A DNA stretch of 64,000 nucleotides from Flavobacteriaceae bacterium GF1 (GTDB lineage: Bacteria > Bacteroidota > Bacteroidia > Flavobacteriales > Flavobacteriaceae), in contig WNKP01000002.1 in NCBI GenBank assembly GCA_009797885.1, positions 186,001 to 250,000 of the forward strand. The letters are read 5' to 3'. Under the pieces are notes generated by a model. The model did not search any database. It was not told the origin of the DNA and saw only the letters and a program-made list of their open reading frames with translations. Of this stretch, positions 5,165 to 64,000 are shown one piece after another (positions within the stretch are counted from its first letter, which is position 1; each line of letters opens with the position of its first letter). The position numbers and the translations under genes are program-made.

Positions 5165-6193
5165 CTACTTGATCAAAATATTCTTGTACCGTTCCAGGTT
5201 TTTTAAAGCGATTCCGGTACCGCGAACAACTGCACGCAAGGGGTCTTCCGCTATGTACACCGGCAAATCCGTTTTTTGCGACAATCTTTTGTCCAAACCT
5301 CTAAGCATGGAACCACCACCGGCCAAATAAATACCTGTATTATAGATGTCGGCAGCCAGTTCGGGAGGCGTTTGCGATAGGGTTTCCATTACGGCGTCCT
5401 CCACACGAAGTATGCTTTTATCAAGTGCCTTCGCAATTTCCCGATAGGAGACTTGCACCTGTTTTGGTTTACCGGTCAAGAGGTCCCTCCCCTGAATTTG
5501 CTTATCGTCAGGTGGGGTCTGTAAGTCTTCTGTGGCAGAACCGATTTCAATTTTTATGGCCTCGGCAGTGGTTTCGCCTACATAAAGGTTATGCTGGGTC
5601 CGCATGTAGTAAATGATATCATTGGTAAAGACGTCACCTGCAATTTTCACGGATTTATCACATACAATTCCGCCTAGGGCGATAACCGCAATTTCCGTAG
5701 TACCGCCGCCAATATCAACAATCATGTTCCCCTTCGGTTGCATAATGTCCAAACCAATACCTATTGCGGCTGCCATGGGTTCATGAATAAGATAGACTTC
5801 CTTACCATTCACCCGTTCTGCGGATTCCCTTACGGCCCGCATCTCCACTTCCGTAATCCCGGAAGGAATGCAGATGACCATCCTCAGGGCTGGGGGAAAC
5901 CACTTTTTCTTTAATGCCGGAATGTTCTTGATGAACATGTTTATCATCTTTTCCGAAGCATCAAAATCCGCAATTACCCCATCTTTTAAGGGACGAATGG
6001 TTTTGATGTTTTCATGGGTTTTCCCCTGCATCATACTGGCCTCACGGCCAACAGCTATAATTTTTCCGGAGATGCGGTCCCGTGCCACTATGGAGGGGCT
6101 GTCCACGACCACTTTATCCAAATGTATAATCAGGGTGTTTGCAGTTCCGAGGTCAATGGCAATTTCCTCGGTCATGAAATCAAAGAATCCCAT
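5165..6193 (-). CDS. mreB: Actin-like cell shape protein MreB
   Basis: A 342-residue actin homologue that polymerises along the inner membrane and orients the cell-elongation machinery. Seen: phosphate 1 motif near the N-terminus (AIDLGTANTLIIH), interdomain motif VIHEP-like stretch (YLIHEPMAAAIGIGLDI), phosphate 2 motif (NMIVDIGGGTTEIAVIALGG) and the adenosine motif (GIYLAGGGSMLRGLDKRL). The short N-terminus MGFFDFMTEEIAIDLG is typical for Bacteroidota MreB. It begins the mreBCD-PBP2-rodA unit; a promoter-like element lies just upstream, immediately behind the purH stop codon. Confidence 0.97.
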   Translation of the reverse strand: MGFFDFMTEEIAIDLGTANTLIIHLDKVVVDSPSIVARDRISGKIIAVGREASMMQGKTHENIKTIRPLKDGVIADFDASEKMINMFIKNIPALKKKWFPPALRMVICIPSGITEVEMRAVRESAERVNGKEVYLIHEPMAAAIGIGLDIMQPKGNMIVDIGGGTTEIAVIALGGIVCDKSVKIAGDVFTNDIIYYMRTQHNLYVGETTAEAIKIEIGSATEDLQTPPDDKQIQGRDLLTGKPKQVQVSYREIAKALDKSILRVEDAVMETLSQTPPELAADIYNTGIYLAGGGSMLRGLDKRLSQKTDLPVYIAEDPLRAVVRGTGIALKNLERYKNILIK

Positions 6194-6233
6194 AAAGCGT
6201 ATTTAATATCGGATTAAAGGTAAATTTTCTCGG

Positions 6234-6241
6234 CAAAAGTA
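6234..6241 (-). promoter_or_regulatory. -7 promoter element for the mreB operon
   Basis: On the minus strand the sequence TACTTTTG matches the Bacteroidota housekeeping consensus TAnnTTTG. It lies 41 bases before the mreB start and only a few bases after the purH stop codon. No clear -33 TTG box is seen. Predicted start of transcription is about 6227-6230. Confidence 0.5.
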
Positions 6242-6247
6242 GAAAAA

Positions 6248-7780
6248 TTAATGCTTAAAATGCCTAGTGCCCGTCATTACCATGGATATTGCGTTTGTAT
6301 TGCAATAATCGATGCTTAATTGGTCTTTTATGGAACCTCCAGGTTGAATGACACTTTTTATTCCTGCCTTATCCGCAATCTCCACACAATCGGGAAAGGG
6401 AAAAAAGGCATCACTTGCCATTACCGCACCCTTCAAATCAAATTTGAAGTGGTTGGCCTTATGGATGGCTTGGTTCAGGGCATCCACCCGTGAGGTCTGT
6501 CCGGTGCCACTTGCGCAAAGTTGTTTGTTTTTGGCCAGGACAATAGTGTTGCTCTTGGTATGCTTGCACAACTTTGAGGCAAAAATAAGATCATCCAGTT
6601 CCTTCTCCGTTGGTTTGCTATTCGTGACATAATCCAAATCCGTTACCGCATCCGTTTTATTGTCCTTTTCCTGCAGTAGTGCTCCGTTTAAACAAGTGCG
6701 AACCAGCATTTGTGGAAGTTCGACAGGTTTTTGGACGAGAATGATCCGGTTTTTCTTTCCTTTGAGGATGTCCAAAGCATCCTTGGAAAAGGAAGGGGCA
6801 ATGACCACCTCACAGAACAATTTATGGATCTCCTCGGCTGTGGGCAAATCAATTTCGGTATTTGAAATCAGGATGCCCCCAAAAGCGGATACTGGATCAC
6901 CGGCAAGGGCATCAACGTAAGCTTGCCCTAGGGTTGGGCGCGTTGCCAGCCCACAGGCGTTATTGTGCTTTAAAATGGCAAAGGTGGGCTCGTCGTTTTT
7001 AAACTCTTCCATGAGGTTAACGGCAGCATCCACATCCAAAAGATTGTTGTATGAGAGTTCCTTGCCATGCAGTTTGTCGAACATGGCCTCAAAATCACCA
7101 AAAAAGAACCCCTTTTGATGTGGATTTTCCCCATAGCGCAGCACCTTGCCTTTCGTCTCACTTATTTTTAGCGCGGCCTGGTCATGATCGGCATTGAAAT
7201 AGTTGAAGATGGCGGAATCGTAGTGTGAGGAAATATTAAAAGCCCTCGTGGCAAACCATTTTCGTTGTTCCAAAGAGGTTTCCCCATTACCTTCCGTAAT
7301 CACCTCAAGGAATTTTCCATAGTCCTCCATTGAGGAAAGGCATAGCACGTCCTTAAAATTCTTTGCCGCGGCCCGGATCAATGAGATGCCACCAATGTCA
7401 ATTTTTTCGATGATATCCTGTTCCGATGCCCCACTGGCCACTGTTTTTTCAAAAGGGTAAAGGTCCACTATGACAATGTCGATTTGTGGAATACCAAACT
7501 CCTCCAATTGGGCCATATCCCCATCGTGGTCCTGTCTATTCAAAATACCCCCAAATACTTTAGGGTGGAGGGTCTTCACCCGTCCACCCAATATGGAGGG
7601 GTAGCTGGTGACCTCCTCGACCGGGACAACGGCAATGCCAAGGTCGGTGATAAACTTTTCGGTGCCTCCCGTAGAATATAAGGTGACCCCCAGTTCGTCC
7701 AACTTTTTTACAATAGGTTCCAAACCGTCTTTATGGAAGACGGAAACAAGTGCCGAAGAAGCTTTTTTGGTGGTATTCAT
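6248..7780 (-). CDS. purH: Bifunctional AICAR formyltransferase / IMP cyclohydrolase
   Basis: A 510-residue enzyme that performs the last two steps of purine synthesis: formylation of AICAR by 10-formyl-THF and ring closure to IMP. The N-terminal MGS-like domain carries ALVSVFHKDG and LYSTGGTEKFI; the C-terminal transformylase domain carries LRYGENPHQ and ILKHNNACG, which contains the catalytic Lys-His pair. Length fits the family. It stands alone upstream of mreB, with its own promoter-like element and an inverted repeat in the leader. Confidence 0.97.
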   Translation of the reverse strand: MNTTKKASSALVSVFHKDGLEPIVKKLDELGVTLYSTGGTEKFITDLGIAVVPVEEVTSYPSILGGRVKTLHPKVFGGILNRQDHDGDMAQLEEFGIPQIDIVIVDLYPFEKTVASGASEQDIIEKIDIGGISLIRAAAKNFKDVLCLSSMEDYGKFLEVITEGNGETSLEQRKWFATRAFNISSHYDSAIFNYFNADHDQAALKISETKGKVLRYGENPHQKGFFFGDFEAMFDKLHGKELSYNNLLDVDAAVNLMEEFKNDEPTFAILKHNNACGLATRPTLGQAYVDALAGDPVSAFGGILISNTEIDLPTAEEIHKLFCEVVIAPSFSKDALDILKGKKNRIILVQKPVELPQMLVRTCLNGALLQEKDNKTDAVTDLDYVTNSKPTEKELDDLIFASKLCKHTKSNTIVLAKNKQLCASGTGQTSRVDALNQAIHKANHFKFDLKGAVMASDAFFPFPDCVEIADKAGIKSVIQPGGSIKDQLSIDYCNTNAISMVMTGTRHFKH

Positions 7781-7820
7781 AGGTATTTAAGCTGCGAAAA
7801 TTAAAGCTTCAAAAATACCT
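7781..7820 (-). promoter_or_regulatory. purH promoter with overlapping inverted repeat
   Basis: On the minus strand TATTTTTG (7810-7817) matches TAnnTTTG and precedes the purH start by 29 bases. The same stretch forms an inverted repeat: AGGTATTT (7781-7788) and AAATACCT (7813-7820) on the plus strand, with AAGCT/AGCTT pairing further inside. The repeat covers the -7 box and the predicted transcription start, the place expected for a repressor operator or a 5' leader hairpin. No known purine riboswitch fold is recognised. Confidence 0.4.
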
Positions 7821-7869
7821 TTTTTAAAAGGATGATTAATAGTGGTTTATCAACAAAACGGCTAAAGTT

Positions 7870-8322
7870 TTAAAGAATTTCGGCCACTTTTTCATTCACG
7901 AATTCCAGAAAGCGTTCGTCGGACTCAGAGAAAGGGTCAGGGGTGTTCGAATCAATATCAATTTGTCCGATGTTCTCTCCATTTTTGAAAAGGGGAACTA
8001 CGATTTCCGACTTTACCGTGAGGCTACAGGCAATGTAATTGTCCTGGGCATGAACATCGGGCACTACAAAATTTTGATTGCTTTCCGCAACTTGTCCGCA
8101 GATGCCTTTTCCAAATGGAATTATAGTGTGGTCGGTGGGTTCCCCCGCATACGGACCCAATTTCAATTCACGTTTGTCCCCGTTTTTGAAATAGAAGCCT
8201 ACCCAATCGTAGTAATCAATCGTTGTTTTCAGGTCATCACAAATCCGTTGCATTTTCTCGGTGGATGTGAGATCCGATTTGGCTATGGTTTCCTCAACTT
8301 TTTCCTTTAACGAATCAAACAT
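7870..8322 (-). CDS. msrC: GAF-domain free methionine-(R)-sulfoxide reductase
   Basis: A 150-residue single GAF-domain protein of the fRMsr family, which reduces free methionine-R-sulfoxide through cysteine chemistry. Seen: the family stretch GKGICGQVAES with Cys75, and DVHAQDNYIACSLTVKSEIVVPLF with Cys99, which correspond by alignment from memory to the resolving and catalytic cysteines of characterised members. A third cysteine present in the E. coli enzyme has no counterpart here, as in several Gram-positive homologues. It is a single gene between purH and the metal cluster; no neighbour suggests a special role. Confidence 0.8.
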   Translation of the reverse strand: MFDSLKEKVEETIAKSDLTSTEKMQRICDDLKTTIDYYDWVGFYFKNGDKRELKLGPYAGEPTDHTIIPFGKGICGQVAESNQNFVVPDVHAQDNYIACSLTVKSEIVVPLFKNGENIGQIDIDSNTPDPFSESDERFLEFVNEKVAEIL

Positions 8323-8425
8323 GTGTAAAATAATTAAAGAGTAAAAGTCGTTGAAATTTCAATAAATTACAATCCATGGCTTCTTAAAAGTAGGTTAACG
8401 GGCCGGTTTGGATTTCTGTATTTTG

Positions 8426-8433
8426 TAAATTTG
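8426..8433 (+). promoter_or_regulatory. -7 promoter element just before the HYC_CC_PP gene
   Basis: TAAATTTG matches TAnnTTTG, and only four bases separate it from the GTG start at 8438. If used, transcription would begin at or next to the start codon, giving a leaderless message. A TTG at 8408-8410 is closer than the ideal -33 spacing. Confidence 0.4.
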
Positions 8434-8437
8434 CAAA

Positions 8438-8848
8438 GTGAAAAATTTGGTTCGCAAAATAGTTGCTCCTTTTCTGGCCATGTTGGTGCTGCTCTCCACT
8501 ATCTCGTGGTCCGTTGAAAAACACCTTTGCATGGGCCGTGTTATGGATGTTGCATTCTTTCATGATGCAGACAGCTGTGGAATGGAAGAAGCCATGACCT
8601 TTATGGGTGAGACCATGGGCGATATGGATTGTTGTGACGACGAATCCTTTACCATGGAAGGCCAGGATGACCTAAAACTTTCCTGGGAGGAACTTGACCT
8701 GGATTCACAAATTTTTCTTGCGGCTTTTGCCCAATCGTACCTGGAACTGATCTTGGTTCCTTCCAAAGATGTTGTCAAAAATACCGATTACCCACCCCCT
8801 TTACCGGTGCAGGATCTCTATATTCTGCATGAGGTCTTTTTAATTTGA
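8438..8848 (+). CDS. HYC_CC_PP-type small exported protein of metal cluster
   Basis: A 136-residue protein with an N-terminal signal peptide or anchor (IVAPFLAMLVLLSTISWS). It has the spaced signature that names the HYC_CC_PP family: His29-x-Cys31, a Cys65-Cys66 pair in an acidic, methionine-rich stretch (MGETMGDMDCCDDE), and a late PPP at 119-121. Function is unknown; the family is usually found beside TonB-dependent receptors and heavy-metal proteins, as here. The Met/Cys/His-rich segment suggests binding of copper or a similar ion (inference). The start is GTG; no Shine-Dalgarno sequence is visible. Confidence 0.72.
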   Translation: MKNLVRKIVAPFLAMLVLLSTISWSVEKHLCMGRVMDVAFFHDADSCGMEEAMTFMGETMGDMDCCDDESFTMEGQDDLKLSWEELDLDSQIFLAAFAQSYLELILVPSKDVVKNTDYPPPLPVQDLYILHEVFLI

Positions 8849-8862
8849 TAATGGCATTTTAG

Positions 8863-8878
8863 GGTTACTCCTGTAACC
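8863..8878. repeat. Short inverted repeat before TonB receptor gene
   Basis: GGTTAC and GTAACC (six perfect pairs, four-base loop) lie between the HYC_CC_PP gene and the receptor gene, 43 bases before the receptor start. It could be an operator or a small leader hairpin. It lacks a T-run and so is not a typical terminator. Confidence 0.3.
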
Positions 8879-8920
8879 GTAGGAATTAATCCGTAATGTC
8901 ATAATTCAAATTAAATTTTA

Positions 8921-11164
8921 ATGAAAAAACATTTTGGTTTACTAATCATCACACTAACAAGTGTTTTTTGCTCCATTGCTCAGGAAAAAGTTGAAGGCAT
9001 GGTAATGGAAGCTAATGATGCTGGTAAACATATAGGCCTTCAAGGTGCCAATGTCTATTGGCTCAACTCCCCCATTGGGACCATTACAGATGAAAAAGGG
9101 CTTTTTTCAATTCCCTTTAGTAATGCATATAACAAGCTTGTGATCAGTTATGTTGGATTTCAAGCGGATACCCTTACGATCAATGGGCCAAAAATGGTGC
9201 ACCATTGGTTGAAGCCGTCAAATCAACTGGACGAAGTAGTGATCCAACAAGAACGGGAAGCTGTTCAAAAAACTTATTTTACCTCTCAAAATGTGGTAAC
9301 CATAAACAGTGCCGAGTTGCTCAAAGCCGCTTGTTGCAATCTTTCAGAAAGTTTTGAGACCAATCCCGCCATTGACGTAAATTTTAATGATGCCCTTACC
9401 GGTACCAAGCAAATCCAGATGTTGGGCCTCACAAGTCCGTACCTATTGATCACCCAGGAGAACATTCCCATGGTCCGTGGGGCTTCTCAAACCTATGGGC
9501 TTACGTTTACCCCGGGCACTTGGATAGAGAGCATTCAAATTACCAAAGGCGCGGGAAGTGTGGTCAATGGGTTTGAGAGTATTTCCGGCCAAATCAACAC
9601 GGAGTTGGTCAAACCCCTTACGGATACCCCCATCTTTGTAAATGGCTATGCGAACCTTAATGGGAGGCTGGAGTTAAATACCCATTTTAATTACAAACTT
9701 TCCGACAGATGGAGTACGGGGCTTTACCTACATGGTAATCAACGTACGGTAGAGGTCGATATGAACGATGATGATTTTTTGGACGTTCCGTTGGCCAATC
9801 AGATCAACATCCAGAATCGATGGCAGTACCAGAATCCCGAAAAGGGTTGGGTCAGCTTTGTTAACCTTCGTTTTTTAAATGACGAAAAACAGGTGGGGCA
9901 GACCAATTTTAACCCGGATACGGGTAGGTTCACCACCAATGCATGGGGAAGTGAAATTGATACCCAACGTTTTGACTCTTCTTTAAAATTGGGATATGTA
10001 TTTCCCAATCTGCCTTTTCAGAGTTTTGGCTTTCAGGCGGCGTACAGTAACCATCAACAGGATTCCTACTATGGGTTCAATGTGTACGATATTGATCACG
10101 AAAGCATTTATTCCAATCTCATTTTTAATTCCATCATTGGAAACACGCAACATAAGTTTAAAACGGGATTGACCTTTGCCTATGATGGCTATAACGAATT
10201 GGTTAATGATGCCAATTTTGTGCGGTCCGATCGCTCTGCAGGGGCATTCTTTGAATACAGTTATGATAATTTGGAGAAGGTGAGCCTTACCGCGGGTTTG
10301 CGTTTTGATACGCATAACCGATTGGGAAATTTTTTCACTCCGCGTTTTCATATCCGGTATACTCCCTGGGAACTGGGAAGTCTAAGGGGCTCCTTTGGTA
10401 TAGGAAGAAGAGCGGCCAATATATTTGCTGAAAACCAACAACTGTTCGGATCTTCTAGGACCATTCAACTTTTGGGCAACGGGGGCGATATTTATGGTTT
10501 TGATGCAGAACGGGCCATCAATTTTGGAGTCAGTTTTTTACAGGGATTCACCTTATTTGACCGACCTGGGAATTTTTCAATCGATTTTTATCGAACGGAT
10601 TTTGAAAATCAGGTCGTAGTGGATTGGGAAAATCCAAGGGCCGTGGTCTTCTCCAATTTGGAAGGGGAGAGTTATGCCAATAGCCTTCAAATAGAATTGA
10701 ACCATGAAATAGTACCCAATTTGGATTTGAGGACAGCGTACAAATTTTATGATGTAAAGACCCAATACCAAACAGGGCTTTTACAACGGCCATTGGTGGC
10801 CCGCAACCGGTTTTTTGCCAATTTGGGCTATGAGACCAAAACCAAGGAAAATGGAAGTCAATGGCGATTGGATTATACCCTTCACGCCGTTGGGGAGCAA
10901 CGTCTTCCCAATACATCAACGAATCCCGTACCCTTGCAATTGGGGGATTTTGTTGATGGGTATACTTTAATGAACGCTCAGGTCACCAAAGTGTTTTCCA
11001 ATAAATTTGAAGTGTACGTTGGTGGGGAAAACCTAACGGCGGTAACACAACCCAATCCTATTTTGGACGCAGGCAACCCTTTTGGACCAAATTTTGACAC
11101 TACTATTGTATACGCGCCCATTTTAGGAAGAATGGTGTATCTGGGGTTTCGATTTAAATCATAA
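8921..11164 (+). CDS. TonB-dependent outer-membrane receptor, likely metal-related
   Basis: A 747-residue receptor: signal peptide (MKKHFGLLIITLTSVFCSIAQ), CarboxypepD_reg-like N-terminal domain (VEGMVMEANDAGKH to VISYVGFQADTL), plug domain, then a beta-barrel ending in an aromatic-rich strand (GRMVYLGFRFKS). It moves a ligand across the outer membrane using TonB energy. The plug has a cysteine pair (Cys138-Cys139 in AACCNLSESFE) where most receptors have none. Neighbours on both sides encode cysteine-pair and HMA proteins, so a thiophilic metal or metal chelate is the likely ligand (inference). No SusD partner gene is present, arguing against a polysaccharide role. Confidence 0.85.
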   Translation: MKKHFGLLIITLTSVFCSIAQEKVEGMVMEANDAGKHIGLQGANVYWLNSPIGTITDEKGLFSIPFSNAYNKLVISYVGFQADTLTINGPKMVHHWLKPSNQLDEVVIQQEREAVQKTYFTSQNVVTINSAELLKAACCNLSESFETNPAIDVNFNDALTGTKQIQMLGLTSPYLLITQENIPMVRGASQTYGLTFTPGTWIESIQITKGAGSVVNGFESISGQINTELVKPLTDTPIFVNGYANLNGRLELNTHFNYKLSDRWSTGLYLHGNQRTVEVDMNDDDFLDVPLANQINIQNRWQYQNPEKGWVSFVNLRFLNDEKQVGQTNFNPDTGRFTTNAWGSEIDTQRFDSSLKLGYVFPNLPFQSFGFQAAYSNHQQDSYYGFNVYDIDHESIYSNLIFNSIIGNTQHKFKTGLTFAYDGYNELVNDANFVRSDRSAGAFFEYSYDNLEKVSLTAGLRFDTHNRLGNFFTPRFHIRYTPWELGSLRGSFGIGRRAANIFAENQQLFGSSRTIQLLGNGGDIYGFDAERAINFGVSFLQGFTLFDRPGNFSIDFYRTDFENQVVVDWENPRAVVFSNLEGESYANSLQIELNHEIVPNLDLRTAYKFYDVKTQYQTGLLQRPLVARNRFFANLGYETKTKENGSQWRLDYTLHAVGEQRLPNTSTNPVPLQLGDFVDGYTLMNAQVTKVFSNKFEVYVGGENLTAVTQPNPILDAGNPFGPNFDTTIVYAPILGRMVYLGFRFKS

Positions 11165-11186
11165 ATTAATAACTAAAAATAGAACA

Positions 11187-11543
11187 ATGAAAAAAAATGT
11201 AATCGTTGCACTTTTTCTTCTGATCGGCACCATTGGTTTCGCACAAGAAAAGAACAAGAAAATGACCTTTGAGGTAGATGGCAGATGTGAAATGTGCAAA
11301 ATGCGAATTGAAAAAGCGGCTTTGGGGGTACCTGGGGTGAAATTCGCGGACTGGGATATTCCCTCCCATCAACTATCACTGATTGTTGATGAGCGGAAAA
11401 CCAATCCCATGGAAATTAAAACGGCTTTGGTCGCTGTAGGACATGATACCAAAGAATTGAAGGCAACCCAGGAGGCATATGACAATATCCATGCCTGTTG
11501 CAAGTATCGTGAGGATGATACGGACGATAACAAAAAACACTAG
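11187..11543 (+). CDS. Exported heavy-metal-associated (HMA) domain protein
   Basis: A 118-residue protein with a signal peptide (residues 1-19, cut near FAQ) and one HMA ferredoxin-like domain with metal motif CEMC (Cys34, Cys37). A second cysteine group, His102-x-Cys104-Cys105, sits in the short acidic tail and is not part of the standard HMA fold. HMA domains of this sort bind Cu(I) or related ions and pass them between partners. The gene starts 22 bases after the receptor and is followed two bases later by another HMA gene, so the three are very likely one operon. Confidence 0.85.
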   Translation: MKKNVIVALFLLIGTIGFAQEKNKKMTFEVDGRCEMCKMRIEKAALGVPGVKFADWDIPSHQLSLIVDERKTNPMEIKTALVAVGHDTKELKATQEAYDNIHACCKYREDDTDDNKKH

Positions 11544-11545
11544 TA

Positions 11546-12265
11546 ATGAAACGGACCTATTCCGTGGATGGAATGACCTGTCAGGGATGCGTCTCTTCGG
11601 TCAAGGAAAAACTGTTGCAGTTGGATGGAATAGATGCGGTGGAGGTTGACCTTGAAAAAGGGGAAGCGGAAATTACCATGCAACATCCTTTGGGATTGTC
11701 GGACCTAAGGGCGGCACTTCCCGATAAATACAGTTTGGGGGAAATGGGCGTTCCTGAAGCATATGAACAAAATTCAGTTGTTGAAAAGTCCAAATTTCAA
11801 CAACTGAAACCTTTGTTCCTGATTTTCGGCTACCTCTTTGTAGCAGCCTTTCTTTTGCATTACAAGGATTGGAATACAGGGGAGGCCATGCTCGATTTTA
11901 TGGGCTTGTTCTATATTGTTTTCAGTTTCTTTAAATTTTTGGACCTAAAGGGGTTCCCCGAAAGCTTTCGAATGTATGATCCCTTGGCCAGGGCCATTCC
12001 CATGTACGGCTGGATCTATCCTTTTTTGGAACTGCTATTGGGATTGATGTTCCTGATGCGATTTGAGGTCCAAATAGCCCTTATAGCCACCATTTTGATT
12101 TTGGGCATTACTACCTATGGTGTCATCAAAACCCTTTTGGATAAAAAAGCAATCCGTTGCGCTTGTTTGGGTACGGCACTACAATTGCCAATGACCGAGG
12201 CCACCTTTATTGAAAATGCCATTATGTTACTTATGGCCATTGGGATGCTTGCCCAAATGGTATAA
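11546..12265 (+). CDS. HMA domain fused to MauE/DoxX-like membrane domain
   Basis: A 239-residue fusion. Residues about 1-68 form an HMA domain with GMTCQGC (Cys12, Cys15). Residues about 85-239 are a four-helix MauE/DoxX-like membrane domain (LFLIFGYLFVAAFLLHY, FLELLLGLMFLMRF, IALIATILILGI, AIMLLMAIGMLAQMV). A further Cys205-Ala-Cys207-Leu-Gly motif lies before the last helix, facing one side of the membrane. MauE-like proteins are linked to thiol/disulfide or heme-metal handling. Together with the upstream genes this suggests that a metal taken up by the receptor is handed to the inner membrane (inference). Confidence 0.8.
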   Translation: MKRTYSVDGMTCQGCVSSVKEKLLQLDGIDAVEVDLEKGEAEITMQHPLGLSDLRAALPDKYSLGEMGVPEAYEQNSVVEKSKFQQLKPLFLIFGYLFVAAFLLHYKDWNTGEAMLDFMGLFYIVFSFFKFLDLKGFPESFRMYDPLARAIPMYGWIYPFLELLLGLMFLMRFEVQIALIATILILGITTYGVIKTLLDKKAIRCACLGTALQLPMTEATFIENAIMLLMAIGMLAQMV

Positions 12266-59930: not shown

Positions 59931-60329
59931 GTGAAAGTATTATTTATAGAAGATGATATGATAGAATCTATGAAATTGCAACGGGCAATTTCAAAGTTTC
60001 AATACAAACACACCATTATTGAAGCTAAAAATGGAGAAGAGGCCCTTGAAATTTTGAAAGGTGGGGACTTACCGGATATTATTTTCTTGGACCTAAATAT
60101 GCCCAGAATGAGTGGCATTGAATTTTTGACCATTTTAAAATCCGATGACCGCCTTAAATATTTGCCTACCGTGATTTTGACCACATCGGAAAATAGGGCG
60201 GATTTATTGGAATGTTTCCGCATTGGGATTGCTGGTTATATTATAAAGCCCTTAAAATATGAGGATTACGAGTCAAAAATTAAAAAAGTGTTTGACTATT
60301 GGGAAATAAGTGAATTGATAAAAGCCTAA
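59931..60329 (+). CDS. Stand-alone response regulator (CheY-like receiver)
   Basis: A 132-residue single receiver domain: acidic pocket Glu7-Asp8-Asp9, phospho-acceptor Asp54 in FLDLNMPRMSG, switch Thr in VILTTSEN, and conserved Lys in GYIIKPLKYED. No output domain. It begins with GTG at 59931. It sits 77 bases before the H-NOX gene and is the only receiver in the window, so it is the best candidate to accept phosphate from the PAS kinase at 60903-63302 (inference). Confidence 0.9.
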   Translation: MKVLFIEDDMIESMKLQRAISKFQYKHTIIEAKNGEEALEILKGGDLPDIIFLDLNMPRMSGIEFLTILKSDDRLKYLPTVILTTSENRADLLECFRIGIAGYIIKPLKYEDYESKIKKVFDYWEISELIKA

Positions 60330-60406: not shown

Positions 60407-60949
60407 GTGAAAGGAATTGTTTTTGCCGAGTTCTTGGAAATGGTGGAGTCCAACTTTGGGCTTGAAACGGTAGATACCATCATAGAGAACTCCGATTTAC
60501 CTTCTGGGGGAGCCTACACGGCTGTTGGGACGTATGAGTTTTCAGAGATGCTTCAACTGGTCGATCAGTTGAGTACCATCACTAAAATTTCCATCAACGA
60601 CCTGTTGTACACATTTGGATTGTATCTTTTTGATAGTCTCGCAAAGGCGCATCCCGATGTTGTGAGCAGTTATAAGGATCCGTTAAGCTTACTCTATTCC
60701 ATAGAAGACCATATTCACGTACAGGTGAAGAAACTGTATCCGGATGCAGAATTGCCATCATTTAGAATACTTGAACGGTTGGACCATTCATTGACAATGA
60801 TCTACAGTTCTTCCAGAGGGCTCTATGCTTTGGCACATGGTCTTATCAAAAAGACTTTTGACCATTTCCAGAAGGAAGTGAATGTAGAAATGAAATTATT
60901 AAATGAGCAAGGAACAGAAGTCAGGTTTATCGTTGTCCAACAAGGATAG
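60407..60949 (+). CDS. H-NOX heme nitric-oxide/oxygen-binding sensor
   Basis: A 180-residue stand-alone H-NOX domain, normal in length. Seen: N-terminal KGIVFAEFLEMVESNFG, proximal heme-ligand region IEDHIHVQVKKLYPDAELPSF with His104 as likely ligand and the conserved Pro117, and the heme-propionate motif YxSxR as Tyr133-Ser-Ser135-Ser-Arg137. Stand-alone H-NOX proteins bind NO (sometimes O2) and control a neighbouring histidine kinase or cyclase. Start is GTG at 60407. The kinase gene overlaps its last 47 bases, tying their translation. Confidence 0.92.
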   Translation: MKGIVFAEFLEMVESNFGLETVDTIIENSDLPSGGAYTAVGTYEFSEMLQLVDQLSTITKISINDLLYTFGLYLFDSLAKAHPDVVSSYKDPLSLLYSIEDHIHVQVKKLYPDAELPSFRILERLDHSLTMIYSSSRGLYALAHGLIKKTFDHFQKEVNVEMKLLNEQGTEVRFIVVQQG

Positions 60950-63302
60950 CTCGGAAGTAGCCCTTTTGAAAAGGGCACTTAATCGGGAAAAGCGGGCCCG
61001 AAAACAGGCGGAGCAGCTGTTGGAAAACAAATCCAAGGAACTTTACGACGCATCCCTTCATCTAAGGGAGGCCAATGGTAGATTGGAATCCTTGCTCAAT
61101 AAAAAGGATTCCAAGATAGACAGTGCTTTTGTAAACATTATTGACCCCTATGTAGTCATGGATCTAAGTACACGGGTCATTAATATGAATACCAGCGCAA
61201 AGGAATTTTTGGGCTTTGATCATACCAAAGAGGACGTTCACCTTATTAGTTTGGTCCATAAGGATTATGAACAATATACAGCAGAATCTTTTAAGACGCT
61301 ACTTCAGGTAGGTGTTTTAAAAAATTACAATGCAAAAATATACACAAAAAAGAATGTCGAGAAATCCGTAAATATCAACGCTAGCCTTATTTATGGGGAA
61401 GACGGTTCACCAATTGCGGCACAGGGTATTATTAGGGATATTACCAAGGAAGTCCAAATAAAGGAACTGCTGGAGAGTCAAAAAAAGCAGCAGGACATTA
61501 TAGTGGAGAATTCTTCCCTTGGGATTGTTTTGGTGGTAAATGGGAAAATCGTCAAGGCGAATAAAACCTTTGTGGAACTTCTGGGATATTCCGAGTTGGA
61601 ACTCAAAAAAATGTCCATAGATGATATATCGACCATTGAGGACGTAAGTCTTTATGAAGACATCCTGAAAAACAATAAAACGGTAGGAACCGACAAATTT
61701 TCCATTGTACGCAAGTTTCATAAAAAAAATGGGAAGTCCATTTGGGGGAAAACCTCTGTAAGCACCGTACGGAACCACAAAGGCGAGATCGATTATAAGG
61801 TGGCCATGGTGGAGGACATTACCAATGATAAGATTTCCGAAGAATTGATAAAGGCTTCGGAGGAACGTTTGTCCACTTTGATCACCAATCTTCAAACAGG
61901 GGTGTTGTTGGAGGATGAAAACCGGAAAATGGTTTTGGCCAACCAAAAATTCTGTGATCTTTTTCAAATACCCATCGCACCGGAAAAGCTTACCGGTGTT
62001 GATTGTAAAAAGGCACTTGACAAGTACAAACACTTGTTTGTTGATCCAGAGCATCTCATAAAAAGGACGGATTACATATTCAAAAAGAAGGAGCTCGTCC
62101 TTTCGGACGAACTGGAACTTGTTGATGGCAGGACCTTTGAACGGGATTATATCCCATTGTTCATTGATGACATCTATAAAGGCCATTTGTGGACCTACAA
62201 TGATGTTACGCTAAGAAAAAACTATCGCAAGAACCTGGAGATCCAGAAGGAAAAGTACAGCAGTATCATTGCCAATATGAATTTGGGATTGGTGGAGATT
62301 GACGGGAACCGAACGATCCTGATGGCCAACCACAGATACTCGGAAATGATCGGTGTGCCCCAAGAGGACCTCTTTGGCCAAAATGTGCTGGAGTTCATGA
62401 ACCTGGACAAAGAGAATCTGGATAAGGTAAATGAACAATTTGAAAAACGTAAAAAAGATCAATCGGACTCTTATGAAGTTGAGATTACCCTGAACACCGG
62501 GGAAAAGAAACATTGGTTGATCAGTGGCGCCCCCCGATACGATGAAGCTGGTAAAATTGTGGGTTCCATTGGGGTGCATTTGGATATTACCAAACAAAAG
62601 GAATTGGAATTGCAGAAGCAAAACCTGGTGAACGAGTTGGAGGAAAGCAATCAAGGATTACAGGAATACGCCCATATTGTGTCCCATGACCTAAAATCCC
62701 CATTGCGAAGTGTAACTGCATTGGCAACATGGCTTTATGACGATTACAGCGATGTTTTGGATGAAAATGGCAAGTACAATCTGCAGATGATGATGGAGAA
62801 GGTAGAGGGGATGGACAAGTTAATAGATGGCATACTAAAATATTCCACGGTAAACAGTGATACCTTGGATAGCACGGATGTGGACGTGAACCAAGTGGTG
62901 AGGGAGATAGGGGAAATTATTTATATACCCGATCACGTTTCCATTAAGGTGGCCAATACACTGCCCGTAATTCAGGCAGACAAGGTGAAGATCCATCAAC
63001 TCTTCCAAAACTTCTTGAGCAATGCCGTGGTCAATATTGAAAAAAAGGTGGGGATTGTGGAGATTGCAAGCAAGGAAACCACTACACATTGGGAGTTCAG
63101 CATAAAGGACAACGGGGTAGGAATCCCAAAGGAATACCACGAAAAAATATTTAAGATTTTCCAATCCATAGGAAATAATGAGCGTTCCACGGGAATTGGA
63201 CTTTCCATAGTCAAAAAGATTGTGGACAGATATCGCGGTAAAGTATGGTTGGAAAGTGAAATAGGGGTGGGTACAACATTCCATTTCACCATAAAAAAAT
63301 AA
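60903..63302 (+). CDS. Multi-PAS sensor histidine kinase paired with H-NOX
   Basis: A 799-residue soluble kinase without membrane segments. An N-terminal coiled coil (about 18-70, ALLKRALNREKRARKQAEQLLENK) is followed by four PAS-type regions (about 75-190, 195-315, 320-440, 445-570; for example NSSLGIVLVVNGKIVKANKTFVELLGYS and MNLGLVEIDGNRTILMANHRYSEMIG), then HisKA with His595 in IVSHDLKSPLRS and HATPase with N-box FQNFLSNAV, DNGVGIP and GIGLSIVKKIV. The N-box reads NAVVNIEKK instead of the usual NAxKYT. No receiver is attached. Lies between the H-NOX and FIST genes. Confidence 0.92.
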   Translation: MSKEQKSGLSLSNKDSSEVALLKRALNREKRARKQAEQLLENKSKELYDASLHLREANGRLESLLNKKDSKIDSAFVNIIDPYVVMDLSTRVINMNTSAKEFLGFDHTKEDVHLISLVHKDYEQYTAESFKTLLQVGVLKNYNAKIYTKKNVEKSVNINASLIYGEDGSPIAAQGIIRDITKEVQIKELLESQKKQQDIIVENSSLGIVLVVNGKIVKANKTFVELLGYSELELKKMSIDDISTIEDVSLYEDILKNNKTVGTDKFSIVRKFHKKNGKSIWGKTSVSTVRNHKGEIDYKVAMVEDITNDKISEELIKASEERLSTLITNLQTGVLLEDENRKMVLANQKFCDLFQIPIAPEKLTGVDCKKALDKYKHLFVDPEHLIKRTDYIFKKKELVLSDELELVDGRTFERDYIPLFIDDIYKGHLWTYNDVTLRKNYRKNLEIQKEKYSSIIANMNLGLVEIDGNRTILMANHRYSEMIGVPQEDLFGQNVLEFMNLDKENLDKVNEQFEKRKKDQSDSYEVEITLNTGEKKHWLISGAPRYDEAGKIVGSIGVHLDITKQKELELQKQNLVNELEESNQGLQEYAHIVSHDLKSPLRSVTALATWLYDDYSDVLDENGKYNLQMMMEKVEGMDKLIDGILKYSTVNSDTLDSTDVDVNQVVREIGEIIYIPDHVSIKVANTLPVIQADKVKIHQLFQNFLSNAVVNIEKKVGIVEIASKETTTHWEFSIKDNGVGIPKEYHEKIFKIFQSIGNNERSTGIGLSIVKKIVDRYRGKVWLESEIGVGTTFHFTIKK

Positions 63303-63317
63303 TGCAAAACAAAATTT

Positions 63318-64000
63318 ATGAAGATTAACCAAGCTAAAAGGAATAAAGAAGGGAAATGGGAATTTCTTCAATCCAATACACTGGTCAAACCTTTGGTGCT
63401 CATTTTTGGGGACAGGTTTATCTTGGAGTCGGATTCCCTATATGATGAAGTAAGGGAGATTTATCCGGATGGGGAACTTGTTTTTGGTTCTACCTCGGGA
63501 GAAATTATGGAAACCCATGTATTTGAGGAAACCGTCACATTAACGGCAATTGAATTTGAACGGACAACATTTCAAATTGTAAGGGAAAACGTTTCCAATT
63601 TTGTGGACATTGAGAAAATGGGCACGGCGATCGCCGCCCAGTTCAACAAGACCAATCTACGTCATGTTTTCATTGTTTCCGATGGCAGTTTCGTAAACGG
63701 AAGCGGTCTTATTGAAGGATTGGAATCCGATGAGGAGTTTAAAGCTACCATAACCGGTGGACTGTGCGGTGATGGAGCCAGGTTCGAAAAGACACTTACC
63801 TCATACAACGAATCCCCAAAACAAGGCGAGGTTGTCGCCATTGGCTTCTATGGGGACAGTTTGGAAATATCATATGCCAACTACGGCGGGTGGACGCCCT
63901 TTGGCCCTCAAAGGACCATTACAAAATCCGTTGGCAATGTGCTGTACGAGATTGACCACAAGCCCGCGCTGGACCTGTATAAAACCTATTTGGGAGATAA
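63318..64000 (+). CDS. FIST-domain sensory protein, 3' end cut by window
   Basis: The frame is open from the ATG at 63318 to the window edge (227 residues visible). The stretch LVLIFGDRFILESDSLYDEVREIYPDGELVFGSTSGEIM, then FIVSDGSFVNGSGLIEGLESD, ITGGLCGDGARFEKT and GEVVAIGFYGDSLEISYANYGGWTPFGPQRTIT, fits the N-terminal FIST domain and the beginning of FIST_C. FIST proteins are signal-input domains thought to bind small ligands, and some (NosP) bind heme and NO. It starts 15 bases after the kinase stop, so it is part of the same operon. Confidence 0.85.
   Translation, partial: MKINQAKRNKEGKWEFLQSNTLVKPLVLIFGDRFILESDSLYDEVREIYPDGELVFGSTSGEIMETHVFEETVTLTAIEFERTTFQIVRENVSNFVDIEKMGTAIAAQFNKTNLRHVFIVSDGSFVNGSGLIEGLESDEEFKATITGGLCGDGARFEKTLTSYNESPKQGEVVAIGFYGDSLEISYANYGGWTPFGPQRTITKSVGNVLYEIDHKPALDLYKTYLGD

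Follow-up and report, generated by a model that had tools for sequence, protein, structure and literature searches.

A conserved flavobacterial gene row suggests a phosphorelay with separate H-NOX and FIST sensor inputs

For most of the bacterial NO-sensor pathways in the literature covered, the endpoint is a c-di-GMP enzyme or quorum sensing. The Vibrio branches that run into LuxU, through H-NOX and HqsK in V. harveyi and V. parahaemolyticus and through NosP and VpsS in V. cholerae (PMC6769237, PMC8738867), lead from a sensor protein to a cytosolic kinase without a sensor domain of its own, then to an Hpt protein and a transcription regulator, and the locus described here has a similar plan. 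In the sections consulted, however, the Vibrio kinases are hybrids that feed the Hpt of quorum sensing, and each branch described has a single NO sensor (PMC6769237, PMC8738867), whereas here two sensor-kinase pairs, a receiver (REC), an Hpt protein and a LytTR regulator are encoded in one row and the kinases gave no match to a receiver domain. The NosP-NahK/NosK-NarR/NosR systems also place a FIST gene beside a kinase whose N-terminal stretch lacks a recognised sensor domain, together with a response regulator; according to the portions covered, the response regulators of these systems have GGDEF/EAL or HD-GYP domains (PMC12570481, PMC11237717). In contrast, the FIST protein of our row is not a NosP by profile, its kinase carries a module that we call n2, the output protein is of the LytTR type, and no GGDEF domain was found. 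The Legionella hnox2 row resembles ours in that H-NOX, a kinase and a single-domain CheY-like receiver adjoin one another; its output is unknown, and the parts of the accounts consulted do not describe FIST, a second kinase, Hpt or LytTR there (PMC11237717, PMC8738867). FIST genes near hnox have been reported for H-NOX neighbourhood group 1 (PMC8738867), which includes the flavobacterium Cellulophaga (PMC7108781), as in our locus, and an H-NOX/FIST gene neighbourhood is already published. In the sections covered, FIST appears there as a Pfam network node, and we found no second kinase, Hpt, LytTR or assignment of sensors to kinases (PMC8738867, PMC7108781). The closest solved structure to our H-NOX is that from Kordia algicida (6BDD), for which the published account, as far as covered, treats gas movement in H-NOX (PMC7356049). 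The seven-gene architecture, exchangeable cassette and FIST-partner module described below were not found in the literature searched.

The window, a stretch of 64,000 nucleotides from Flavobacteriaceae bacterium GF1, ends inside the FIST gene, which hid three further genes from the first reading. Extending the contig past position 64000 completed FIST at 64445 and revealed HK2, Hpt and LytTR genes, so that the trio of H-NOX, kinase and FIST described in the earlier note consists of real genes but is an incomplete unit, the middle of a row with the order REC - H-NOX - HK1 - FIST - HK2 - Hpt - LytTR regulator. On the + strand, the row begins with a stand-alone single-domain receiver gene (59931-60329; PF00072, 3.6e-21; phospho-acceptor Asp54), which lies upstream of the H-NOX gene (60407-60949; 180 aa) across a gap of 77 nt. 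As first read, HK1 (60903-63302; 799 aa), a four-PAS histidine kinase with Pfam PAS, HisKA and HATPase matches and the proposed H-NOX partner, has its start codon 47 nt inside the H-NOX gene; by alignment its N-terminus carries a module of about 70 aa, n1 (60948-61157), the proposed site of H-NOX input. The FIST gene (63318-64445, of which 63318-64000 lies in the window; 375 aa) does start 15 nt past the end of HK1, and its product matches PF08495 (7.7e-43) and PF10442 (4.4e-35). Past the window end the contig continues with HK2 (64446-65495), which consists of the n2 module and an HK1-like core and directly follows FIST. An Hpt gene (about 65495-65818) comes next, then the gene of a LytTR response regulator (65820-66536; REC and LytTR domains, each about 1e-18), and exopolysaccharide-type genes begin at 66890. 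The row is most likely an operon, in which all seven genes would be co-transcribed; a scan for promoters and terminators gave counts no different from shuffled sequence.

We propose, with a probability of roughly two in three, that this row, a gene set conserved among marine flavobacteria, encodes a two-input, four-step phosphorelay with two sensor-kinase pairs and one shared relay. H-NOX, on binding NO, would act on HK1 through n1, and FIST would act on HK2 through n2; both kinases would phosphorylate the stand-alone REC at Asp54, from which phosphate would pass to the Hpt histidine and on to Asp53 of the LytTR regulator, with transcription as output. The two inputs would thus converge after the kinase step, on the relay of REC, Hpt and LytTR, and not on one kinase. 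The observed basis is gene order, its conservation, the phospho-sites, the closeness of the kinase cores, the near-exclusive pairing of modules with sensors and the failure to find GGDEF; the direction of phosphate flow, the sign of the effects and the target genes are conjectural.

H-NOX proteins are heme NO/O2-binding sensors, and from the family NO is the signal expected here. The H-NOX of the row is a predicted heme NO sensor, as the earlier note had recognised: it matches PF07700 (E 1e-39), its HNOB domain scores 136.5 bits against a curated cut-off of 25.5, and it has both the proximal heme ligand, His104, and Tyr133-x-Ser135-x-Arg137, the YxSxR motif of H-NOX proteins. Of the 105 aligned family sequences, 104 retain the heme His, all 105 the Tyr and the Ser, and 100 the Arg. 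The nearest solved chains are 6bde and 6bdd (E about 1e-58).

Conservation of the row was assessed in a family set of 106 H-NOX loci (L066-L171, our locus being L097), drawn from 108 places over the cut-off by omitting G140:C28 and the fragment G112:C80; the sub-cut-off place G076:C2 was also ignored. All seven genes are present in 52 of these loci, a five-gene form without FIST and HK2 in 38, and REC lies upstream of H-NOX in 101. FIST is accompanied by two kinases at 56 loci and by fewer at only one, which lies at a contig end; two kinases occur without FIST at one locus, and 48 have neither FIST nor a second kinase, in a count that is blind to L066, the sole locus with FIST upstream of H-NOX. 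FIST and HK2 are therefore gained and lost together as one exchangeable cassette, and on a quickly built tree its gain and loss takes 19 changes, at least 8 of them forced by well-supported branches. Both families occur together in 68 genomes, and in 58 of these H-NOX and FIST are same-strand genes no more than 6 kb apart, so that their linkage is not due to chance. Among named FIST loci (the best 80 of 588 relatives, found with two peptide patterns of the FIST's own subfamily, so that other FIST types are unsampled), the seven-gene order is unbroken in 48, and Kordia algicida OT-1 (L256) has the same seven-gene row; several of the named loci apparently come from genomes already in the family set. 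The trio is thus common in Flavobacteriaceae, FIST clearly co-occurs with the H-NOX/kinase pair in relatives, and this conservation supports the earlier reading in that both sensors very likely serve one pathway. H-NOX is absent at 28 of the 80 named loci. Six of these (L240, L247, L268, L272, L275, L277) are operon-like loci, truncated loci or a displaced cassette, and in two of the six (L272 and L275, from Flavobacterium) no H-NOX was found, yet an HNOBA-type kinase, FIST and HK2 are kept; the other 22 (L279-L300) are independent rows outside the operon type.

The assignment of each sensor to a kinase rests on the n1 and n2 modules, for which HMMs were built from the operon kinases, so that matches within the family set are partly by construction. 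Kinases directly 3′ of H-NOX carry n1 in 151 of 157 cases and never n2, and those directly 3′ of FIST carry n2 in 142 of 146 and never n1. Across 299 genomes, 74 of the 77 n2 matches sit immediately behind FIST and 105 of 111 n1 matches immediately behind H-NOX, the latter among those listed at E<1e-6 (weaker ones, many on other kinases, were omitted); each sensor therefore most likely controls its own kinase, H-NOX HK1 and FIST HK2. FIST lacks n2 behind it at 43 of 117 places in these genomes, mostly because these belong to another FIST subfamily, arrayed in tandem; the remainder are fragments or lie at contig ends. The six post-H-NOX kinases without n1 are that of L066 and five from Flavobacterium, of which all three searched with Pfam have an HNOBA domain in its place and the other two look alike. 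In H-NOX neighbourhoods outside the family, n1 was found in 6 of 10 (one weakly), and two (G456 and G367) have neither a kinase nor n1 near H-NOX. The n2 module has no Pfam match, and neither the S. meliloti NosP kinase nor a Sulfurovum FIST-kinase fusion, the two tested, matches it; it is thus no universal mark of FIST partners.

These pairings bear on the reading of the earlier note, in which H-NOX and FIST both act on HK1 and provide two affinity ranges or opposite effects. The FIST start only 15 nt after HK1 and the conserved HK1-FIST order fit such an arrangement, but a second kinase accompanies FIST in 56 of 57 loci, n1 is kept on 104 of 105 HK1-position kinases in the family set although 49 of the 106 loci have no FIST downstream, and FIST pairs with n2 proteins also at loci without H-NOX. 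With FIST provided with an n2-bearing kinase of its own, we rejected the single shared kinase as unsupported and regard it as very improbable. A different objection is that n1 and n2 are coiled-coil signalling linkers that travel with kinase lineages and are no docking sites. Both modules look helical by eye, and n1 gives weak partial matches on 12 of 15 FIST kinases (model positions about 21-64, one at E<1e-6) and weak matches on other kinases too. We nevertheless consider this doubtful, as the modules track the sensor and not the output domain: at L279-L300, the rows least tied to the n2 training set, n2 is present on 17 partner kinases, three SpoIIE phosphatases, one GGDEF-EAL protein and, by eye, one more partner, each directly after FIST, and n1 likewise occurs directly after H-NOX, on kinases as well as a GGDEF-EAL protein. 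These patterns favour separate sensor-kinase pairs, in which each sensor may dock physically on its module.

For the steps beyond the kinases, all parts of a His-Asp-His-Asp multistep phosphorelay are in the row: kinase, receiver, Hpt and output receiver. Their phospho-sites are invariant in the family alignments, with REC Asp54 in 101 of 101, the Hpt His in 96 of 96 and LytTR Asp53 in 93 of 93; Hpt itself gives a weak Pfam match (0.0012; 19.5 bits, cut-off 24.6), and the HisKA match of HK1, at 26.0 bits, falls slightly below its cut-off. Pfam found no receiver domain in HK1 or HK2, so that passage of phosphate from kinase histidine to Hpt histidine needs REC. The sequences of the HK1 and HK2 cores mark them as closely related, with 46% identity at our locus, where the N-terminal modules differ, and 47.0% on average within one operon (57 pairs), as against a mean of 28.5% (range 18.6-71.0) between HK2 and FIST kinases elsewhere, a mean that includes two relocated HK2-type kinases (L183 and L184). 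In its own genome the nearest core to HK2 is HK1 (8e-67, the runner-up at 9e-17), and in two other genomes the best match to our HK2 core after their own HK2 is the operon HK1; in G164, however, a third kinase core is almost as near to HK2 (4e-59) as HK1 is (1e-62). Also on the contrary side, neither HK1 nor HK2 forms a single clade on a quick tree of cores, with 7 and 4 changes against 63.7 and 49.2 after shuffling. The core similarity suggests that the two kinases share target specificity.

Kinases of one operon need not have common targets, and with REC and LytTR the row offers two candidate receivers; HK1 could accordingly signal to REC while HK2 serves a different receiver, as two insulated pathways with transcription alone in common. 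We judge this unlikely, since the five-gene form, which lacks HK2, retains REC, Hpt and LytTR (38 of 106 loci), so that these belong to the H-NOX branch; moreover, no receiver comes with the FIST cassette, and the HK1 and HK2 cores are close. A relay shared by both kinases remains our preferred reading.

What FIST senses is a separate question. The earlier note considered that it may be a NosP heme sensor, which is so far unsupported. FIST has both NosP-type domains, FIST N (PF08495) and FIST C (PF10442), but the complete protein scores only 47.8 bits against the NosP profile NCBIfam NF041558 (cut-off 450), and because of this result we rejected its classification as NosP; the NosP-type protein of S. 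meliloti used for comparison also falls below that cut-off, at 369.5 bits. Identity to NosP-type proteins averages 19.5%. Gly191, found in 57 of 57 operon FISTs, aligns with a position (210 in S. meliloti) that is His in 7 of 7 NosP-type proteins, whereas a C-terminal histidine (His364 in our protein) is shared by 55 of the 57 operon FISTs and 7 of 7 NosP-type proteins, so that of the two one is lost and one retained; a heme-ligand residue of NosP, including any role of the invariant His, was not found in the literature searched. A PDB sequence search with FIST, at E up to 1, gave no match. For the FIST at L222 AlphaFold provides a good model (mean pLDDT 92.4), and by Foldseek the nearest solved fold is the FIST domain of FBXO22, with no heme protein, judged by titles, among 20 matches at E up to 0.001. 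That FIST is nonetheless a NosP-like heme protein, so that both branches read NO at two kinases, is in line with the shared domain pair, the retained His364, the soluble kinases among published NosP partners and the NO-sensor type of the neighbouring H-NOX; set against the profile score, the low identity, the Gly at the invariant His and the fold matches, it is a possibility to which we give considerably less than even odds. NO or heme is thus a possible ligand, and a different ligand is at least as likely.

We also put forward, more tentatively than the relay itself, that the row is a two-signal gate that arose by grafting: FIST and an n2-bearing kinase would have been joined to a copy of the resident H-NOX-kinase core, adding a second signal, probably not NO, to the NO pathway with its relay unchanged. 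The n2 module would then be a widely used FIST-docking unit, fitted to kinases, SpoIIE phosphatases and c-di-GMP enzymes alike, much as n1 or HNOBA serves H-NOX, and gain or loss of the cassette would rewire the input over evolution.

As to output, the usual c-di-GMP route is unlikely here because a search of the genome for GGDEF domains alone gave 0 matches; among relatives a match occurs in 2 of 60 genomes, one of them over the cut-off. A nitrate-reductase chaperone family also gave no match in the genome of our strain, which says little about NO sources. In this lineage the LytTR regulator may possibly act on the adjoining exopolysaccharide cluster. This is a hint only, as such genes lie downstream on the same strand at just 16 of 142 loci with room, a count that excludes our own locus and in which some genomes are perhaps counted twice.

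If the proposed wiring is correct, the row would provide a direct route from NO to transcription in bacteria among which GGDEF was matched in 2 of 60 searched genomes. It would also be a natural example of two sensors, each with its own kinase, that converge on a single relay, for which the versions of the row that lack one branch are ready controls. The n2 module, in turn, would allow the protein controlled by a FIST of this subfamily to be predicted from sequence.

H-NOX (60407-60949; PF07700, 1e-39), a kinase with PAS, HisKA and HATPase domains (HK1, 60903-63302) and a FIST gene starting at 63318 lie where the earlier note placed them, and the domain matches agree. Extending the contig of this 5.28-Mb genome past 64000, beyond the window edge, yields the whole FIST protein (375 aa). 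A second kinase (HK2, 349 aa), in which no PAS domain was matched, begins directly after the FIST gene, and next come genes for Hpt and for a LytTR regulator with a REC domain; a stand-alone receiver (REC) lies 77 nt upstream of H-NOX. A search of the genome finds one H-NOX and one FIST gene. The nearest named FIST genes, among the best 80 of 588 relatives, belong to Croceivirga, Flagellimonas and Allomuricauda; H-NOX accompanies 52 of these 80 loci, and the seven genes are unbroken in 48.

The gene row is a real, conserved and well-defined system. Among 299 family genomes, 105 have H-NOX, 87 FIST and 68 both, a strong association (Fisher p 3e-23, shared descent being ignored); in a sample across the phylum, H-NOX occurs in 16 of 247. 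The co-occurrence of FIST with the H-NOX/kinase pair is borne out in relatives: 58 of the 68 genomes with both carry them within 6 kb on one strand, FIST downstream in 57. The intervening distance is stepped by ~380 nt (~1350, 1730, 2120, 2500) and HK1 lengths peak at ~400, 530, 660 and 790 aa, which fits one to four predicted PAS domains of ~127 aa each. All seven genes are found at 52 of the 106 H-NOX loci fetched (out of 108 places), and 38 have a five-gene row without FIST and HK2; the remaining 16 comprise partial rows, contig ends and other arrangements. FIST and HK2 occur together at 56 of the 106, FIST without the second kinase at one (L095, at a contig end) and two kinases without FIST at one (L171). 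In a 91-locus tree built from the shared genes, this FIST-HK2 cassette needs 19 changes, with at least eight placed on branches of good support; the figure for shuffled data is 29.7, and the cassette has therefore been lost or gained many times. A genome from another family (G448) has the complete row too, and the row stands in unbroken order in Kordia algicida OT-1, source of the nearest solved H-NOX. The PDB chains of that protein, 6bdd and 6bde, are labelled 'dihydroxyhept-2-ene-1,7-dioic acid aldolase', evidently a misnaming; 6BDD is confirmed as H-NOX, and 6bde by near-identical sequence.

Several loci depart from these forms. The H-NOX of L171 (G057:C429) has Tyr at the heme-His position, and its operon keeps HK2 without FIST, which that genome carries elsewhere, on contig C179. 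At L066 (G253:C16) H-NOX has FIST upstream of it, and the kinase that follows, of 1156 aa, starts with neither N-terminal module described below, another way to combine the two sensors. Two Flavobacterium loci (LC2016-13, L272, and F. hydatis, L275; ~6131-12171) keep REC, a PAS kinase (HNOBA-type by Pfam in L272), FIST, an HK2-type kinase and Hpt; H-NOX was not found at either, likely a natural loss of one sensor. In Lutibacter oricola (L240) an operon-type row has a kinase with the HK1 N-terminal module (n1, below), in front of which H-NOX was not detected. Tenacibaculum skagerrakense (L269) has two kinases with the HK2 module (n2): HK2 follows FIST upstream, and the second, with no FIST to itself, belongs to the H-NOX row.

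The kinases differ in their N-terminal modules, and these follow the sensors. A model of the first 75 aa of HK1 (n1) matches 104 of 105 HK1 and none of 57 HK2; a model of the HK2 stretch preceding the catalytic core (n2), for which Pfam gave no match, finds 56 of 57 HK2 and just 7 of 105 HK1, the two best falling on its linker part. It also recognizes 14 of 15 kinases adjoining FIST genes away from H-NOX (L183 and L184 among these being displaced HK2-type) and an Azospirillum FIST kinase (1e-11); n1 gives weak partial matches on 12 of the 15 (~1e-5, model positions ~21-64). In a census of 331 kinase genes from 200 loci, n2 was present in 142 of 146 kinases after FIST and n1 in none, n1 in 151 of 157 after H-NOX and n2 in none, and n2 in two and n1 in three of 28 after neither, a pairing that is partly by construction; named H-NOX loci also overlap the genomes used to build the models. 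The cleanest rows for n2 are 22 named loci (L279-L300), where the FIST partners bearing it are 17 kinases, three SpoIIE phosphatases and one GGDEF-EAL protein; at the one remaining locus (L289) it was recognized by eye. Across the 299 genomes, 74 of 77 n2 places lie directly behind FIST, and among the matches listed (E<1e-6) 105 of 111 n1 places lie directly behind H-NOX, H-NOX being followed by n1 in 105 of 108 cases and by n2 in none; one FIST precedes a weak partial n1 match overlapping n2 in the same kinase. Ten H-NOX neighbourhoods from beyond the family were inspected: the partner carries n1 in six (Persicobacter, Pseudooceanicola, a Comamonadaceae GGDEF-EAL protein, G479, G448 and, weakly, G468) and starts in an HNOBA-like way, as judged by eye, in two (G418, G440), and no kinase or n1 was seen in the other two (G456, G367). 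Some Flavobacterium H-NOX partners carry HNOBA in place of n1 (4/4 kinases run on Pfam, one from a locus without H-NOX). A Sulfurovum mangrovi plasmid (L065, 5926-7920) encodes a 664-aa fusion of FIST and histidine kinase without an n2 match.

The earlier note also suggested that the FIST might be a NosP, an NO-sensing heme protein. By the curated profile it is not: the complete protein scores 47.8 bits against a cut-off of 450, one that an S. meliloti protein, the one run on NCBIfam among the seven plasmid-derived NosP-type proteins compared, also falls under (369.5). Operon FISTs share 19.5% mean identity with these seven and have Gly in 57 of 57 at the position of their invariant His; a C-terminal His (Cys-x-Leu-His-Asn-Gln-Thr-Met) is kept in 55 of 57. 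The nearest fold to the predicted structure is the FBXO22 FIST domain (TM 0.55 by query length). Dual NO sensing by H-NOX and FIST is thus far unproven. Several family genomes also carry a separate FIST subfamily (mostly ~90-110 bits), often in tandem and not linked to H-NOX, and at L185 (G225:C68:168000-184000) four tandem FIST genes adjoin a kinase-like gene.

With respect to output, c-di-GMP is unlikely, since no GGDEF domain was found in this genome and the relatives set of 60, in which it is counted, has 2 genomes with a match. The genes beyond LytTR form an exopolysaccharide-type cluster: GT2, REC, a sugar transferase and genes that we take to be Wzc- and Wzx-like. Of the 142 loci whose contigs extend 4 kb or more past this point, 16 have such genes next on the same strand, ten of them in close relatives of this genome (L126, L139, L146, L161, L163, L222-L226); the link is thus a hint from one lineage and no rule.

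A Shewanella study reportedly has NosP feeding the H-NOX network. In published accounts, the group 1 H-NOX neighbourhood network includes FIST genes (PMC8738867), Cellulophaga is a group 1 member (PMC7108781), NosP binds and inhibits its own kinase (PMC12570481), and in vibrios the H-NOX/HqsK and NosP/VpsS branches both feed LuxU (PMC6769237). No description of the seven-gene operon, the cassette or n2 was found in the literature searched, which mostly excluded subscription papers.

Within one operon, HK1 and HK2 catalytic cores share 47.0% mean identity (57 pairs); against FIST kinases elsewhere the means are 28.5% for HK2 (range 18.6-71.0, displaced L183 and L184 included) and 29.0% for HK1. 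In this genome HK1 is the nearest core to HK2 (8e-67), the next being weaker by 50 orders of magnitude. Searched with this query, two other genomes also give HK1 directly after HK2, but in G164 a third kinase is nearly as close. Neither kinase forms one clade in a quick core tree. Because the cores are close, HK2 resembles the operon's own kinase core fitted with a FIST-type N-terminus. The idea of two sensory inputs stands, and that of a single shared kinase is unlikely, as the modules pair FIST with the n2 kinase and H-NOX with the n1 kinase. Since no receiver domain was found in HK1 or HK2, the link to Hpt falls most naturally to the stand-alone REC, and phosphate would pass from kinase to REC to Hpt. 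Every aligned copy keeps its phospho-site (REC Asp54, 101/101; Hpt His, 96/96; LytTR Asp53, 93/93). REC, Hpt and LytTR are all in place in the five-gene form; what the cassette brings is thus a further input without an output, and the two inputs likely meet at this shared relay, not at one kinase.
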